64,000 nucleotides of DNA from Adlercreutzia muris (lineage in GTDB: Bacteria; Actinomycetota; Coriobacteriia; Coriobacteriales; Eggerthellaceae). A program made the position numbers and the translations under genes. The stretch spans positions 62,001-126,000 of the forward strand of contig NZ_WAJS01000001.1 in NCBI RefSeq assembly GCF_008831045.1, given 5' to 3'. The notes under the pieces are model-generated. The model ran no database searches. It had not been told where the DNA came from and worked only from the letters and a program-made list of their open reading frames with translations. This document shows positions 35,756-64,000 of this stretch, piece by piece; positions within the stretch are counted from its first letter, which is position 1, and every line of letters begins with the position of its first letter.

Positions 35756-36028
35756 TCAAGGGGGGGGTGGAACTCGCGACGCGCCGAGGCGGTTTGGCGG
35801 TGCGCTGCCTGCTTCACCTCGCAGCGCGGCACAGGACGGCGCTCGCGACCCGCCCCCGTGGTCGGAGCTGGGCGGCGCTTGCGATCAGCCCTCGTTGTCC
35901 TCCGGGGCGGCGTGATGGCCCGCGCTCGTGCTATACTGGCCCGGAACTATGACGAGGGGGCGCGACCCGGCAGTATTCGTGCTGCGGCCTGGGGAGGCGG
36001 GGCGCTCGCAGAGAGGTTGAGGGATACT

Positions 36029-41313: not shown

Positions 41314-42006
41314 ATGGCCGTCACCTTCTACTTCACCCGCCACGGGGAAACCCAGTTCAATGTTGAGAACCGCGTTCAGGGATGGTGCGACTCGCCCTTG
41401 ACGGAGAAGGGTGTGCGCGATGCCCGCCTGCTCGGCCGGGGCTTGGCCGATCGGGATTTTGCGGCCGCCTATGCCAGCGACGCCTCCCGGGCCCGCGATA
41501 CGCTGGCCCTGGCCCTGGAAGCCCGGGCAGAGGCGCGTGCCTGCGAGGGACGGGCTATTGCGCCCGTTCCCGTACGCGAAGATGCACGGCTGCGCGAGTG
41601 GTGCTTCGGGGCGCTGGAGGGGGAGCCCTCCGAGGCCATGCGCCAGTGCCTGCGGGATCTGTTCGGGGAGGATCTGCCCCGGGAAGCCCAGAATCGGCGC
41701 CTCAACGAGATCGCCGACTATCTGAATGCCACCGATCCAACGGAACGGGCTGAGAATTTCGCTGCCATAGCTGCCCGCATCGAGGCGTTCCTGCACGAAT
41801 GCGGCCGCGCCGTGGAGGAGGCGGGCGGTGGCAATGTGCTCGTGGTGTCCCATGCCCTGCTCATCCGCGCGCTGGTGTTCCTGTACGTCCGCGATGGCGT
41901 GCCCTTTCCCTCCAAGATCGAGAATGCCTCTATCACCGAGGTGGTGTGGGATGATGGTGCCATTTCCGTGGGGGCCATCGGCGCCACCGATCATTTGGCG
42001 GGCTAG
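41314..42006 (+). CDS. Histidine phosphatase family protein (phosphoglycerate-mutase-like)
   Basis: 230 aa with the RHGE catalytic motif FTRHGETQFNVENRVQGW near residue 10, a second arginine in ASDASRARDT, the acidic REWCFGALEGE and the second catalytic histidine in VLVVSHALLIRAL. Members are cofactor-independent-looking phosphatases of sugar phosphates, nucleotides or cobalamin intermediates; the substrate here is unknown. It ends the ABC transporter operon. Confidence 0.9.
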   Translation: MAVTFYFTRHGETQFNVENRVQGWCDSPLTEKGVRDARLLGRGLADRDFAAAYASDASRARDTLALALEARAEARACEGRAIAPVPVREDARLREWCFGALEGEPSEAMRQCLRDLFGEDLPREAQNRRLNEIADYLNATDPTERAENFAAIAARIEAFLHECGRAVEEAGGGNVLVVSHALLIRALVFLYVRDGVPFPSKIENASITEVVWDDGAISVGAIGATDHLAG

Positions 42007-42088
42007 CTGCTGGAGTTGCATCGGCTCCCGCCCAACGGTGCAGCGGGGCTCTTAACGAAATGTTTCGTTCCCGAGCAAAGACGCTTTG

Positions 42089-42116
42089 TTGAAAAATCGT
42101 CGGGTTGGCGTATACT
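42089..42116 (+). promoter_or_regulatory. Promoter of the poly-G surface protein gene
   Basis: TTGAAA (42089-42094), a 16-base spacer, then TATACT (42111-42116), about 75 bases before the ATG at 42193. One of the best sigma-70-like promoters in the window. Confidence 0.7.
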
Positions 42117-42192
42117 GTGCGACACCTATACCGACGATTACGTTTGCGTCTTCCTCGGTCCATCGGCTGTGGAAGGCCAGTTGGGAGCAGCA

Positions 42193-45100
42193 ATGAAAGA
42201 AAACGTACCCCAAAAGAAGCTGTTTCGTTGCATCCTGGCGGTAACCCTGGCGGCGGGCTTGACCCTGCCGTCCGTGGGTGCATTCGCCTACGGAAGCCCT
42301 GAAGAAACATCTTCCGATTCGCTGACGGTGAACGACCGTCCTCTGGATGCCGGCGAAACTGGCACTGGCGAGGCCCTGCCGCCCGAATCTGATGAGCACG
42401 CCGACACTTCCGCTGGTGGCGATGGCGTTGCGCCTGACAGCTCGGCACCCGGCGATGGCTCCGAAAACGCCACGGGGGGGGGGCGCTTCTAAGGAAGAGG
42501 TAGCCGATCCCGCTGTCGATGCCGCCGACTCTGCCGACTCTGCCGATGCCCCGGCTGTCGCTGCTCCCGCAGCCGATGACGGCATCGTCGCGGCCTCCGA
42601 GGAAGGCGAGCCCGCGCCCCAGGCCGACGGTGACGGCTTCACCGACTACGGCGGACTTTCCATCCAGGGCGGCACGCCCGGCACCGACTACGATTTGGAG
42701 ACGGTGACCTATACCCATTACTGTCGGAGTAGCACGCGTCCCGCTGGCTCGAACAGCGGCCGCGACATTACGGTGTACCCTCAGTACAAGGCCGAAAACA
42801 CGATATCCTCCCTCGTCATCAAGAAAGACGGCACCTATCGTCTGAGGAATACCCAGGGGGTTGATACGGCGGTGTCCACCTCCATCCGGGTCGAGCCCGG
42901 CGTGAAGGCCGATATCACCTTCGAGGGCGTGAACATTCGCAGCGAGCTTCCCTTCAACATCGTCACCAACAGCACCGATAATGGCTCCTACCTCACGACA
43001 GAAGTGTCTGCCGACGACGTGAAGAACAAGACGACCGTGCACCTCACCCTCGCCGATGGCACGGTGAACACGCTCTACGCCAACCAGCACCTTACAAAGA
43101 CGGCGAATACTGCCACCGACCCCACGCGCTATCAGCAGTACCCGGCCCTTCGCTGCGGCGAGGGCTCGGTTCTCGTGGTGGACGACGCGGTCCGCAACGT
43201 GGACACGGCCGGCAGGGCCATTGTTCCCGAGCAGGGCATGATTCCCGCAGGCACGAAGTACCGTGATAAGGACGGCGACACGCAGACGGCTACGGCCAAA
43301 GGCTCCGATCTGGTCAACAGCCTCTCGAATCTCGACAGCCGAAATCCGGGAGCCTTGAACGCCTATGGCGGTATTCGTGCGGCGGCCATCGGCGGCGGCC
43401 CTCTGGAGAATTCGGGTCACATGACGTTCAACGGCGGCATTATCCATGCCGAGGCAAACGACAGAACTGGCAACGGCGCCGGCTGCGGCATTGGCGGCGG
43501 TCACGCAGCGGGCAGCACCGAGACCGTCTTCAACGGCGGTGAGGTGAAAGCCTATGCTTCCTATCATGGGGCGGCCATCGGCGGCGGCTGCACCTACGAG
43601 GGCGGCATGTCCCTGGGGACCCAGTACACATTCCCCTTCCAGGATGCCCTTATAACGCGCAATGCTCACGCCACGGTGGCTGGCGATATCACCATCAACG
43701 GCGGCTTTATTGAAGCCTTTGGCGCAGAGCACAGCAATGCCTTCGGTCAGGGTTGCGCGGGCACCAATGCAGGAAAGACCATTCTCATCACCGGCGGCAC
43801 GCTGCTTCCCCATTGGGGCAACGGCGCCGGCTATCTCGAAATTGGTGGCAATCAGGGCTACGTGATCATCACTGGCGGCTCGGTCTACTGCACGCTTTTC
43901 CAGGGCAACGACAATGATGGCCTGGCCTATGGTGACGTGGAGAAGACCAAGAAGGTCGGCATGATCACCGTGGATGTGAAGTCGAAGATTCAGGCGGCGG
44001 CCGATAAGGCACAGGTCACACCGGACTTTAACGCCAAGATGGAGAGCTGGGAGCTTCTGCTTGACAAGAAGCTCTCCGACCCGCGCTATGGGGCACCGGC
44101 GAATCTGAACGACGGCAAGCTGTATCTCTGGCTTCCCCAAGGCACGAACGACGACCATCAGATCGATGCGAACTTCTCCTATTATGTGGGAGACAAGCTG
44201 CTCACCTCCAATACTACCCTTCCTCCCGGATCGGTGGGCGGCGGTGACACCAAGCCGAAGGAGTGGAACGTCTTCAAGCTGGACGAGACCTTCGTGCAGG
44301 AGAACTGGAACAAGTACTACGATGGCAAGGAGCTTGAGCGGGTAGATGTGGAGAAGACCCCCATTCCCGTTGACGATCCCATTGACGGCAAGCTGAACCA
44401 GAACAAGTTCATCAAGTACTACTATTGGCAGGTCGATGAGGACGGCGAGACGGTCGGCAGCGCATCGGAGAACACCAAGACGCCCGCTGCTGCGGGAACC
44501 TACACCATCGAGGTGCGCTCCAACCAGTACGCCTCCGACCCGAACTTCAACATGACCTACTGGGGCCATGCGGCTACGGGTAGTGCCGTTATCTCGCCAG
44601 TGACCTCGAAGACCTCCTGGGAACTGACCGAACCGCTGAAGTTGGAGATCACCGACGGCGAGGGCAACAAGGTGGAGAAGGAGTACACCGGCCCCACCTG
44701 GGCCCAGGATGAGAACGCCGGCAACTTCAACACCGCCACGAACAACCATCTGGTGGTGCCTGTGGACGTAACCAGCGACAAGCTGCCCTTCGGCGACACC
44801 TACCCCGACGGCTCCAATATGTCGAAGACCACCTGCGCGGCACCGACGGGCCGCTTGCAGCTCTACATCGACGGACGCGCGGTGCCCGAGAGCCTCGGCG
44901 GCGTCATCGAGTTCGATCGCGCCAAGCTGGAAGACGCCACCTTCGAGAAGGCGTGGATCAAGAAGGACACGGATGGCCGCGAGCACACCATGGCCTACTT
45001 CAACCTGACCCGCGGCCAGCTGGAGGCCTTCGGCCTGGAGGACAAGAGCGCCGAGGGCAACGAGCACCGCGTGTATGTGGAGTACACGAGCGCCCGCCCG

Positions 45101-48100
45101 GGGTCCGACCCGCGCGACGAGGCCGCCGCCGGTGCCGCTGTGGCCTCGGCCCTGGCCCGCATCATGGGCACCGAGCCCCGCGAAGCCTGGCAGCCGGCCC
45201 ACAACGATTCCGCCTACGTGAACTACTACGAGTCGGCCAACGAGGCGGCGCCGGTGGAAATTGAGCTGGCCACGCCCGACTTCCGCCTGTTCAACATGAA
45301 GGATACCGGCTATGTGCCCAACGGCGAGGGACTTAGCGACGCCGACCAGGCCGCCAACGAGGCTACCGTGAAGGCCAACATCAACGAGAAGACCGAGCGC
45401 GACTGGATTGACCCTGCCACCAAGGAGCCCCGCGGCAAGCGGGAGGAGACCGACGTGTCGAAGTTCCGCGACGAGACCGACGAGGACGGCACGGTGATCG
45501 CGACCCATGCGGATTGGTTCCCGCTGTACGTGCAGTCCAATTCCATCGGCGACATCGTGTTCACCAGCTCGAACCCGGGCGTGATTAAGATCGAGCCCAA
45601 CGACTTCACCACGAACCGCCCCTATGTGGACGGCAAGGTGGATTACGGCGTGGGTGCCGTGGCGCGGGTGATGTCGGCGGGCAAGACCACCATCACGGCC
45701 ACCATCAAGGGCACGGGCGCCTACAGCAGCGTGACCAAGAGCTTCGACGTGTACATCTTCCCCGATCTGGCCAAGGAGCCCGAGCTGGCCATGACCGAGA
45801 CGGCCTACGACATGTCGCGCACCGACGGCACCATCCGTCCCGGTGACACCTTGCGCTACGTCGTGACGGCCACCAACGAGAAGAACGACACCGCCTGCAT
45901 CAATCCCGTGTACGAGCTGGGCATTCCCGGCGACACCGACTTCTCGGCCCTGACCATCGTTGACCCGGAGGGCAACGAGGTGCAGGCCGATTACGAGGTG
46001 GTCGGCGACAAGGTGGTGGTGAAGAGCCTGCCCACGCTGTTCGGCGGCCAGTCCTACCGCTTCAAGCTGGATGTGGTCGTGAAGACCGATGTGCTGGACA
46101 AGCAGCCGGGCGAGAAGCCGGAGTTCCTGAGCCATTCCGAGGTGTCGGGCGTCTACGGCATCGATCCCGATGCCTTCGACTGGGATAACCGCATCGATAC
46201 CGAGAACGGCGTAGAGGTGACTCCGGCCGAGGCCGAGGCCAATCCGACCCTGCCCCCGAGCCCCGATGCCGCCCCCGAGCCGGAGCCGGAGCCCATCGTG
46301 CCCGACCCCGACACGGCCACCGAGATTCTCGGCGGCGACCTGGAGGATCCGGAGCCGGAAGATCCGAGCGACCCCGACAGCCCGAAGAAGCCCGGCGTGC
46401 CCGTGGGCCCCGTGAAGCCCGGCTCGCCCTTCGACGAGGCCGTGGATGCCGATCCGGACGATCCCACGAAGCCGGCTCCGCCGACCGATCCCGATGCCGA
46501 CCCGGACGACCCCGATGCCCAGCCGCCGAAGCGCCCCATCCAGGAGGGCGATGTCATCGTGCAGTTCGGCGACAAGAAGGATCCGCAGTCGCCCGAGGAT
46601 ATTGCCAAGGAGTTGGACGAGCAGATCAAGCAGAAGCTGGAGGAGGATCCCGAGGCCGACCACGTGGATATTCCGGTGACCATCGAGCGGCCCAACCCCG
46701 ATGACCCAGATGGCGACCCCCTTCGCGAGGAGGTCATCGTCACGGTGCCCATTACGCCCGAGATGCGCCCCGACCCGGTGGACCCCGATGCCCGCGACGA
46801 CCACGATCTCATCATCGTGCCCGACGATGTAGACCCCCGCCCCGGCGGCGACATCACCACGACCAAGACGGCCGAGAACGTGACCCCCGGCTTCGCGAAC
46901 CGGCCCAACCAGGCATCGGCCCTGGTGGGCGATACCATCCGCTTCACCATTACCGTGGCGAACTCCAAGCCCGGCAGCTCCTACTACGACGTGGTGGTGA
47001 AAGACCCGCTGCCCCAGGGTCTGGCCTACGTGGCCGGATCGGCGGTGGTGACCGATGCGGCCGGCAAGGAGTACCGCGACTTTGAGGCTGACTGGGATGA
47101 GAATTCGCGCATTCTCGGTTTCTGCCTGGGCGATGTGCCGGGACTGAAGAGCGCCAGCGTTACCTTCGAGTGCACGGTGACCGGCGAGGCCCTGGACGGC
47201 GATGGCAACCTGTCCAACATTGCGGCGCCCCTGGGCACCCAGCCCTCGCAGACGGTGCCCGAGCCCGATCCCGACAACCCCGCGCCGGGGCCCATCGTGA
47301 TCGATCGTGAGCCCACCCCGCCCGGCCCCTACAACCCCGAGGACCACGGTACCACGTGGGAGGACAAGGAGAAGGACGTCATCGACGAGATCAAAGACCT
47401 GTTCCCCGAGATTCCCGAGGACGAGGAGATCGTGATCCCGCCCTCCGAGCCGGCCGACCCCGGCACGGCGAGCCCGTCGGATCCGAAGCTGGAAGATGAC
47501 GACGAGGGACCGGCCGACGTGAAGCTGGTGAAGACGGCCGAGAACCTGGACCGCAGCGACGGTAGCACCCACGTGGGCGATACCGTGCGCTACATAGTAA
47601 CGGTGAGCAACGCCAAGCCGTATTCCATGTGGTACGACGCGGTCGTTCGCGACGAGGTGCCCGAGGGGCTGGAGGTGCTGGAGAAGAGCATCAAGCTGAC
47701 CGATGCCGCCGGCACGGTGCACGACGTGCCCGATTCGGCCTACGATGTGCGCAGCCGCGTGCTGGCCGTGGCCTGCGGCGACTTGCCCGGCGGTGCCTCG
47801 GTGTCGGTGACCTTCGACGCCCTGGTGACCGAGGACGCGGTGGGTAAGGACGTGGGCAACACGGCTTCGGCCCACGGCACGCTGCCCTCCACCCGCGAGC
47901 CCGGCGGTGCCAACACGACCCCTGGCGGCCCCTTCGTGCCCTCCGAGGGCTGGGAGTCCTTCATCGAGGGGCATCCAGGGGTGAGCAACCCCGACCCGGT
48001 GTACCCGTCGGCCGATGTGAACGCCAAGGGCGGCATCATCGGCGGCGATGTGGGCGACGATAAGAAGCATCGCACGCTGCTGTATCTGGCCCAGACGGGA

Positions 48101-48205
48101 GATGCGGCCCGCGGGGCCCTCCTGGTGGTCGCGGCCTGCGTGGCCGGCTGCGTGGCCGTCATCGCCCTGGCGCGGTCGCGGCGTCAGAGCCGGCGCAGGG
48201 CTTAG
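42193..48205 (+). CDS. Large LAQTG-anchored surface protein, out of frame at a poly-G tract (probably phase-variable)
   Basis: As sequenced, translation from ATG 42193 stops at 42492 after about 99 residues (ending GGGRF), because ten Gs stand at 42474-42483. With nine Gs the frame continues as GGGASKEEV to 48205, giving ~2003 aa. Signal peptide (ILAVTLAAGLTLP, cleavage near AFA). An acidic Ala/Pro spacer leads to a beta-rich region with repeated NGG...IGGG motifs (about 43370-43880) and an Ig-like/BIG2-like segment (about 45500-45770). Three DUF11-type repeats (about 45780-46130, 46860-47210, 47520-47840) are joined by Pro/Asp linkers. The end is YLAQTGD, a membrane helix and an Arg-rich tail, i.e. 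a sortase signal. A homopolymer sequencing error is the alternative to real slippage. Confidence 0.85.
42474..42483 (+). repeat. Homopolymeric tract of ten Gs (contingency-type)
   Basis: Ten Gs inside the coding start of the surface protein. Nine or twelve keep the frame open; ten or eleven close it. Confidence 0.9.
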
Positions 48206-60762: not shown

Positions 60763-63700
60763 CTACTTGTGACGGTTGCGGAAGCTGTGCCAGGCAAGGG
60801 CTCCGCCGAAGCAGGCGGCCAGGGCTGCGATGCCGATGGGAATGAGGTTGTTGTCGCCTGTTTGGGCCAAGCGCCCGGGAGCGGGAGAGGCGGCCTGACT
60901 CGGTTCGGGCTCTTGGGGCTCGGGCTCCTCGGTGCCGCCCGTGGGAGGTAACGGCAGGTCGGGGTAGCCGTAGGTGACCGTCTGCCCCTCGTCCTCCAAG
61001 TCGGCGTGGAGGGCCACCTCCGCATCGCCATGGTAGAGCGACTCGAAGACGACGAGGCTCGCGCCATCGAGGTCGGTGCCGGGGATGGTGATTTCCACTT
61101 CTACGATGCCATCGCTGTGCTCGGGCACGAAGGTCTTCTCGGCGGTGATGATCTCATCGCCAACGGCGAAGGGCTCGCCGCTCTGCTTGTCCATGAGCAG
61201 GGCCACAAGACGGTATTCGAAGCCCGGGGTGAGGCCCTGGTAGCTTACGGCATCGACGATCGTGACCTCTTCGGCCGGTTCGCCCTCGTGGGTGCCGCTC
61301 ACGCTGTCGCGGGCGGAGGTTGCTATGGTGATGGGGTTGGCGGTGATAGTCTGCTTGCGATCGTCGATATCGTGGTGGGCGGCCACCTCCGAGCCGTTCT
61401 TGAGCAGGGTCTCGAACACGACCAGCTCGGTGGATTCCTCGATGCCCGAGGCATCGAAGTGCAGCTCGATGTTCTGGTAACCGTTGTAGTCGTTCGGCGT
61501 GAAGGTAGCGGATGTGGCCACTTCGGCGTCATCGGCGAGGAAGGGCTCGCCGGTGGATTTGTCCATCAGCACGGCCTGCAGCTCGTAGGGCTCGCCCGGC
61601 TTAAGGCCGGAATAGGTCACGCGATCCACAATGGACACATCGGTATCGGCGCTGATCTCGCGGTCGCAGAGATCGTTGGAGATGCCGTCGTAGGCGCTCG
61701 TGCGGATGGAGGGGCGCCCAGCAGCAGTGTTGTTGAGCGTGCCCAGGTCGATGGCGAGGTCCTGGTCGCTCTCGTCCACGACGATCTCATCGTGGATCAT
61801 CTGGAACAGCTCGTTGGCGGGACAGCGCAGCTCTTCCAGCTCGTAAGTATCGAAGGGCAGCGCTCCGTGCTCGTTGTCGGGATCGATGGCCGTGCCGTCG
61901 GCTCGTAGACCGAACCACGTGCCGGCGGTGGGATCGAGGGCATCGACATCCAGGGTGAGGGGCATGCGGAAGCTGCCGTCGGGGGCGCGGAACTGCTCGT
62001 CGTTGCTGTTCGTGCGTTGGTCGTGGGGATGGGCAGCGGTGGACTCCGTGGAGGCGAGGCCGTTCTTGTCGGTGACGATGATGTGCCACTCGCCCGTCGT
62101 CTTGGAAGTGAGCTTGAAGGGAATGCCCGCTAGCTTGGCAGCCCCTTCGGCCCGCTTCATGAAGCGCAGATCGGAGCGCACGACCTGATCAGTTACGAGA
62201 TCGCCGTTCTCCTCGGCGTCATAGGTCTCGATGATCTCGCCGTCGTGGTCGGCATCGGTGATATGGCGCACGCGCACGGTGGGATCGAGTCGGTAGCCCT
62301 CAGGGGCCTTCACCTCTTGGATGGCGTAGGTGCCGATGGGCATGGCGATGGTGCCGTCAGAGAGCTTGTAGAAATCGGATCCACTCACTTTGTAGGGGAG
62401 CTGCGTCTCTTGCCCGTTCTTGTCCATGTGCGTGAAGCTACTTTCCGCGTCTTTCAGTACGAACGCGCCCTCATCGTTGGTGCGCACGACCCAGCTGGCT
62501 CGCGGCGTTAAGGGAGCGATGGACGACGCTGTGCCGCCCTTTACGTCATGATAGTCGATACGGAAGTGCGCGTCCCCCAAGGTAGCCGCACCTTGGGCAA
62601 AATTCTCCTTGCTTTGGGCATCTCGCTTCTGGATGAAAATGGACAGAGGGTTTAGCTTCGCCTTGTCGGTGACGGCCGTGGTGTTGACGCGGGTCACGGC
62701 TCCGTCGGTGACGATGACGGGGTAGATGCGGGTATCGAGGGCGAATCCCTGAAGCGGGCGCTTCGTCTCGCGTACCCAGTAGGAGCCGATGGGCAGCCCG
62801 TCGGCTCGGGCATAGCCCTCTCCCTCGGCCGTCAGGTCGGTGCGCAATTCGCGAGCGAGCTGCGTGCATGCCTCATCGCGGTAGATACCGTAGGTGGCGC
62901 CGGCGAGGGTATAACCGGGATTATTGCCGGTCAGTTCGGGATAGTTCGACTGCTTGAGCAGGTCGATGGAGCCCTGCTGGGGCACGTCCTCGAAGACGAG
63001 GGAGCTTATAGCCTCGGCATCGCTTGCGGCTTCTACGGCGAGGGCCTTGACCGAGGGGGCCAGGCGGAAGCCGGGGGGCGCGAAGAGCTCGGCGACGTAG
63101 TACGTGCCGGCCTCGATGTCCTCGACGACGTTGCTCGCGCCGTCGCTATCGGTCACGAATGTGAAACTCGCGTTCTGGTCGGCCCAGGCGCGCGCCTCCT
63201 CCCAGGTACCCCAGGCACCGTTCTGGGCCTGGCGCGATGCCGCCTCGGCAGAAGATTGCCCATCGAAGGCGGCGAACACGCCGTGCTCAAGGGAGTAGTT
63301 CCCATTGGCATCGGAGATGGCCGGCTCGGTAGACACCTTGGTAAGCTGGGCCTTCCCGGTGGTTACGGGCGCAGCGAGCAGGTAGCCCACGACATCCTGG
63401 AACTCGTTGCCCGTAGCGGCGGACATGGCGTCGAATTTGTAGTAGAACTTATACCAGCCCTGGTACTGCGTCTGGGGCCCCGTGTAGGTGCCCTTGAACA
63501 CGATGTAGTTATCACCGGCGGGGTTGGTGGTGACGGCGCCGTAGCCGTTGTTCACATTGGATGATCCGCAGGTGCCGTGGGCCATGGCGCGGTTGGTGGG
63601 CGCAGTGCCCGAGCTGATGCCGGCGTCGAAGAAATCGCGGCCGGTGGTGACGTAGCGATCGTAGTAATGGCTGCCGGTCTGGGCTGTGGCGAACTGGGCG

Positions 63701-64000
63701 GCCGACCCGTTGCGGGCCGCCACCGTATCCCACAGGTAGAGGTCCACGGCGGCGTCGAAGGAACTGTCGTTCACATCGAGGAACCAGTCGTTGAAATTGG
63801 TGCTGTTGGGCTTGCTGTTCTCCCATACCTGGGAGGCACTGAAGAGCACGCCGAAGCCGTAGCTGCCCACTTTCTCCGGCGGGAAGCCGTAGGCCTTCTG
63901 CTTCTCGATCTGCTGATCGGTGAAGTTCTCGAGGCGCGTGTGGGGGTTCAGCTGGTAGCGCTTTTCGGCCTGGCCGGGGAAGGCGCGAGCGCTCTCGCCG
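60763..64000 (-). CDS. VaFE-repeat surface-anchored protein (SpaA-like adhesin), 5' end outside window
   Basis: About 1078 residues visible; the frame is open to base 64000, so the signal peptide and start lie beyond. N-terminal visible part has SARAFPGQAEKRYQLN and a domain with AHGTCGSSNVNNGYGAV reminiscent of thioester-type adhesins. Several prealbumin/SpaA-like folds with KxD...E elements follow. Two VaFE repeats (about 61620-61300 and 61300-60960) have SIVDRVTYSGLKPGEPYEL, LVVFETLLKNG and TIVDAVSYQGLTPGFEYRL, LVVFESLYHGD. The C-terminus is a Pro/Glu spacer, LAQTGD, a membrane helix and a short basic tail. Anchored by a sortase not seen here. Confidence 0.9.
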   Translation of the reverse strand, partial: GESARAFPGQAEKRYQLNPHTRLENFTDQQIEKQKAYGFPPEKVGSYGFGVLFSASQVWENSKPNSTNFNDWFLDVNDSSFDAAVDLYLWDTVAARNGSAAQFATAQTGSHYYDRYVTTGRDFFDAGISSGTAPTNRAMAHGTCGSSNVNNGYGAVTTNPAGDNYIVFKGTYTGPQTQYQGWYKFYYKFDAMSAATGNEFQDVVGYLLAAPVTTGKAQLTKVSTEPAISDANGNYSLEHGVFAAFDGQSSAEAASRQAQNGAWGTWEEARAWADQNASFTFVTDSDGASNVVEDIEAGTYYVAELFAPPGFRLAPSVKALAVEAASDAEAISSLVFEDVPQQGSIDLLKQSNYPELTGNNPGYTLAGATYGIYRDEACTQLARELRTDLTAEGEGYARADGLPIGSYWVRETKRPLQGFALDTRIYPVIVTDGAVTRVNTTAVTDKAKLNPLSIFIQKRDAQSKENFAQGAATLGDAHFRIDYHDVKGGTASSIAPLTPRASWVVRTNDEGAFVLKDAESSFTHMDKNGQETQLPYKVSGSDFYKLSDGTIAMPIGTYAIQEVKAPEGYRLDPTVRVRHITDADHDGEIIETYDAEENGDLVTDQVVRSDLRFMKRAEGAAKLAGIPFKLTSKTTGEWHIIVTDKNGLASTESTAAHPHDQRTNSNDEQFRAPDGSFRMPLTLDVDALDPTAGTWFGLRADGTAIDPDNEHGALPFDTYELEELRCPANELFQMIHDEIVVDESDQDLAIDLGTLNNTAAGRPSIRTSAYDGISNDLCDREISADTDVSIVDRVTYSGLKPGEPYELQAVLMDKSTGEPFLADDAEVATSATFTPNDYNGYQNIELHFDASGIEESTELVVFETLLKNGSEVAAHHDIDDRKQTITANPITIATSARDSVSGTHEGEPAEEVTIVDAVSYQGLTPGFEYRLVALLMDKQSGEPFAVGDEIITAEKTFVPEHSDGIVEVEITIPGTDLDGASLVVFESLYHGDAEVALHADLEDEGQTVTYGYPDLPLPPTGGTEEPEPQEPEPSQAASPAPGRLAQTGDNNLIPIGIAALAACFGGALAWHSFRNRHK

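Follow-up and report, generated by a model that had tools for sequence, protein, structure and literature searches.

A G10 tract near the start of a predicted LAQTG-anchored surface protein gene of Adlercreutzia muris as a candidate phase-variation switch

Organization of the locus

The analysed DNA, a 64-kb stretch of the A. muris genome hereafter called the window, contains a gene for a large predicted surface protein whose coding sequence is broken near its 5' end by a run of ten Gs (Table 1). The frame beginning at ATG 42193 encodes a signal peptide (MKENVPQKKLFRCILAVTLAAGLTLPSVGAFAYG...) followed by a Ser/Asp/Gly-rich linker, passes through the G10 tract, which is found 281 nt after the ATG, and meets a stop codon at 42490–42492. 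The frame beyond the tract is open until 48205, and its 1906 residues end in LAQTGDAARG, a hydrophobic stretch and RSRRQSRRRA. A preliminary description of the locus had stated that the signal-peptide frame ends at 42492, that one G fewer would restore the frame to 48205, and that the LAQTG protein is OFF as assembled; both frames, the tract and the LAQTG-transmembrane-Arg tail were confirmed here.

All parts of a sortase-anchored architecture are present, i.e. a signal peptide, an LPXTG-like motif (the LAQTG variant), a transmembrane stretch and a positively charged tail, and the genome contains three matches to the sortase domain PF04203, two of them over the cut-off. The C-terminal half of the protein matched DUF11 and RrgB-type isopeptide domains (TIGR04226 and TIGR01451 above cut-off), and an isopeptide-type stalk is the usual kind for a wall-anchored surface protein. 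The N-terminal half gave no match in Pfam and no sequence match in the PDB, and a single-sequence structure model of the N-terminal region reached a pLDDT of 35; the label "adhesin" is thus a putative one, taken from the architecture (signal peptide, isopeptide/DUF11 stalk and LAQTG anchor) rather than from a binding domain.

The window encodes another LAQTG surface protein on the minus strand (60766–63870), with SpaA and T-Q ester-bond domains; no G/C tract was found in the part of this gene within the window, and its 5' end may fall outside. The window has one further long G run, a G8 at 35760–35767, which was considered and rejected as a switch candidate, as it is placed after a terminator-like hairpin and ahead of a MobB/MobA gene.

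Table 1. Features of the tract-containing surface protein gene (window positions).
Feature	Position	Strand	Evidence
Sigma-70-like promoter, TTGAAA-16-TATACT	42089–42116	+	10/12 matches; 0.1 expected; sole site in 41900–42600
Assembled signal-peptide frame, 99 codons up to the stop (product in the OFF state)	42193–42492	+	1 difference in 279 bases of the upstream coding part compared to the sister species
G10 tract, proposed slippage site	42474–42483	+	G9 in the orthologue; immediate flanks identical
1906-residue protein body	42484–48205	+	Domain matches; dN/dS about 0.08
Composition of the body: Ser/Ala/Asp-rich linker, Gly-rich N-terminal region, DUF11/RrgB-type isopeptide repeats, acidic-Pro linkers			
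Sortase sorting signal: LAQTG, transmembrane stretch, Arg-rich tail	48086–48202	+	Sequence; sortase-domain genes elsewhere in the genome

Comparison with the sister species and selection on the downstream frame

An orthologue of the gene (L031) was found in a sister species represented by the metagenome-assembled genome of an uncultured Enterorhabdus from the class Coriobacteriia (CANSQM010000009.1; G003). Here, the tract is G9 and the gene forms one uninterrupted frame of 2066 codons, so that a tract one G shorter indeed joins both frames. The sequences are closely similar upstream as well, with five differing positions in the 152 bases preceding the ATG. A search of 138 genomes of the family for precisely the flanks seen at the window tract gave only the A. 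muris genome and the sister species.

The long open frame had initially been taken as a sign of selection, having stayed open for 5.7 kb. This argument was rejected, as in this GC-rich DNA the minus strand over the same gene contains an open reading frame of 2045 codons (41933–48070) that spans the whole gene. The rarity of a G10 was likewise discarded as evidence in itself, since one appeared somewhere in 33 of 100 dinucleotide shuffles of the 64 kb, i.e. in a third of the shuffled windows. As the antisense strand is also open and G10 runs are common in shuffles, neither the openness nor the run alone is evidence, and what is above chance is the position of the G10 together with its recurrence in paralogues. 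The conclusion on selection stood nevertheless, on the basis of dN/dS instead: purifying selection acts strongly on the downstream frame, with a dN/dS of 0.07–0.08 compared to the orthologue over 1903 codons downstream of the tract. Substitutions at codon positions 1, 2 and 3 of the sense frame numbered 41, 26 and 243, respectively, a pattern which marks the plus strand, and not the antisense open reading frame, as the coding strand.

Tract genes across the genome and the genus

The A. muris genome contains 41 G or C runs of at least nine bases, of which 12 fall 73–281 nt after the start of genes encoding large surface proteins with signal peptides (LAQTG-type). The expected number of such placements is about 0.1 (Poisson P about 4e-21), calculated with an estimated number of roughly 24 such genes, each contributing 300 nt. 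The tract genes were counted from the regions around G/C runs, giving a total of at least 12; several have visible LAQTG or LAQTS ends and others reach contig ends. The same arrangement was found in four other species of the genus (G002, G003, G004 and G005). Across the 28 tract genes of the five species, the remaining 109 kb of coding sequence contained no run of at least nine bases, while the count in the first 300 nt is selected by construction and was not used as a test. The tracts are uninterrupted even though the 112-nt coding stretches upstream of them differ by 18% on average. Some family members lacking a tract (in L096, L114 and L115) are simply in frame. A distant homologue from another family (L034) also has no tract and an in-frame signal peptide. 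The gene family thus seems ordinary in other respects, with the tract as a control superimposed on it. As runs of this kind are found at the start of at least eleven sister genes, the window locus seems to belong to a whole collection of surface-protein switches that flip at random.

An assembly or sequencing error, with a true tract of G9 and a constitutively intact gene, would fit the error-prone nature of long G runs, the difference of a single base and the G9 of the sister species. However, an error at this position leaves unexplained both the eleven paralogue tracts at the same place, which occur in both frame states, and a second pair of genes differing by 10 versus 9 bases (L068/L120), and even a true consensus of G9 would leave the tract a slippage site. 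We therefore regard such an error as unlikely to account for the locus.

Several other tracts were noticed in the genomes. A G10 (L086:6993–7002; G000:C32:24192–24201) splits a family-2 glycosyltransferase gene into 347 codons before and 518 codons after the tract, in differing frames, making it a candidate for a second kind of phase variation. A G11 (L084:6967–6977; G000:C28:25866–25876) is placed within the receiver domain of a LytTR response regulator, the halves of which are in different frames, and this regulator is possibly phase-variable. A G9 (L094:2814–2822; G000:C61) follows a short start frame and precedes a frame of 716 codons with no Pfam match, out of frame as assembled. Another G9 (L067:1777–1785; G000:C8) separates two divergent frames resembling the ends of HsdS, the type I restriction specificity subunit, perhaps an invertible arrangement. 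The 2.4-Mb draft genome G004 had 262 matches to G9, several times more than its relatives.

Frame states and tract lengths

Among the 28 tabulated genes, 7 were in frame and 21 out of frame, and two further genes were in frame (L083) and out of frame (L127), respectively. Nearly every tract had a length of 9 or 10. Genes with an intact frame at length 9 were ON in 7 of 9 cases, compared to 0 of 19 for genes needing another length, 17 of which need 8 or 11 (Fisher P = 3e-5, only indicative as the copies are related). The genes requiring 8 or 11 were thus OFF in 17 of 17 copies, with long frames still free of stops; in the MREKRR...TPP-IEFSE subfamily, for example, all copies (G000, G002, G003 and G005) have C9 or C10 and never the in-frame 8 or 11. 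Two near-identical pairs differ by one base in the tract, namely the window gene and L031 (10/9) and L068 and L120 (C10/C9; dS 0.016). For the compared pairs of the always-OFF set, dN/dS was 0.28–0.62, indicating less constraint than at the window locus or in the L078/L115 pair (0.10).

That one class is OFF in every copy counts against free ON/OFF switching as a complete description, which alone would not predict it. A tentative explanation, which we consider possible rather than probable, is that the register relative to a mutational resting length of 9–10 sets the default, such that the ON-at-9 genes are mostly ON and the 8/11 genes are either near-silent or read by programmed slippage on the C run.

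Slippage of RNA polymerase or the ribosome at the tract could also operate in its own right, yielding some full-length protein at any DNA length and hence leaky or set-level expression with no heritable switch. The CCC-C proline codons found in the C-tract paralogues are a known type of +1 shift site, and the retention of long open frames at a dN/dS of 0.28–0.62 in genes that are out of frame in every copy would agree with such reading. The other subfamilies are, however, mostly in frame (7 of 9), and at the window locus, where the orthologue is in frame, no fixed slippage has to be assumed. As a general explanation slippage during expression is improbable, and it may be relevant mainly for the C-tract genes that are always OFF. 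A plain frameshift pseudogene in A. muris, suggested by the frame being broken as assembled, is very hard to reconcile with the low dN/dS, the 1906 codons past the tract without a second lesion, the conserved promoter and upstream frame, and a break exactly at a homopolymer of the kind common to the paralogues.

Mismatch repair and the proposed switch

Neither MutS1 nor NucS was found in the genome, and the only match to MutL was below the cut-off, with matches of this type also occurring in control genomes that lack a true MutL. This result agrees with a previous report in which all analysed Coriobacteriia were without MutS-MutL and NucS (PMC5290159). Slippage within a ten-base run would consequently escape repair by these systems.

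The window gene combines three features of slipped-strand contingency loci, namely a homopolymer of at least about 8 bases in the 5' coding part, a tract length that decides the frame, and a downstream frame under selection. Slipped-strand phase variation, with the G10 as the contingency tract, is very probably the best explanation, in view of the intact orthologue of another tract length, the purifying selection, the eleven further tract genes and the absence of mismatch repair, and the original proposal of such a switch is accordingly largely supported. During replication, the run would gain or lose one G by strand slippage that mismatch repair does not correct. A tract of 9 (or 12) Gs would place the signal peptide in frame with the protein of about 2000 residues, which would be exported and then attached to the wall by sortase through its LAQTG motif (ON), and with 10 or 11 Gs translation would stop within about 20 bases past the tract (OFF). 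The chromosome as assembled, at G10, is in the OFF state. The length would presumably change at a high rate within the strain, and the protein is presumably expressed when in frame. As the genome has at least twelve tract genes, this locus included, a clonal population would be expected to form a mosaic of surface-protein combinations.

Significance and comparison with known systems

The mechanism is known in other bacteria but has apparently not been reported for Eggerthellaceae, for which no paper on tract-based phase variation was found among the open-licence literature; capsule switching by inversion has been described in Eggerthella lenta (PMC13174815). The present locus would bring tract-based phase variation to the Eggerthellaceae, gut commensals of a lineage that lacks mismatch repair, with a dozen surface proteins involved in each genome. 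Strain typing that considers only which genes are present would then give wrong assignments, since individual cells would display different surfaces. From the register pattern follows a simple rule, open to testing, that tells the genes with an ON default from those with an OFF default, and if it is true, the 8/11 set, OFF across four species, would be a near-silent reserve of surface proteins.

The closest likeness is to the sortase-dependent pili of Bifidobacterium breve UCC2003, where replication slippage in a G tract acts as a switch and most cultured cells have the OFF length (PMC9187656). Both are gut commensals of the Actinomycetota with a tract in a sortase-dependent surface gene, one G fewer restores the frame and the genome sequence is OFF. 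In B. breve, the tracts are G10–G12 in two pilus operons and switching was measured in reads and in mice (PMC9187656), whereas the candidate switches described here are at least 12 genes for large surface proteins, with G or C tracts soon after the signal peptide. In Gardnerella, for which such switching is also indicated, a genome likewise has numerous genes with variable homopolymer tracts, among them LPXTG and other surface-protein genes and putative sortase substrates, and 9/10-base differences were observed between colonies (PMC11287997). Most Gardnerella tracts are, however, upstream of the open reading frames, while those described here are intragenic and follow the signal peptide (PMC11287997). 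The set also resembles the phasomes of Campylobacter, Helicobacter and Neisseria, in which poly-G/C tracts in surface-structure genes act as independent switches (PMC8355987, PMC2823697). Those phasomes involve LOS, capsule and outer-membrane genes, while the set described here encodes predicted wall-anchored proteins of a Gram-positive bacterium.
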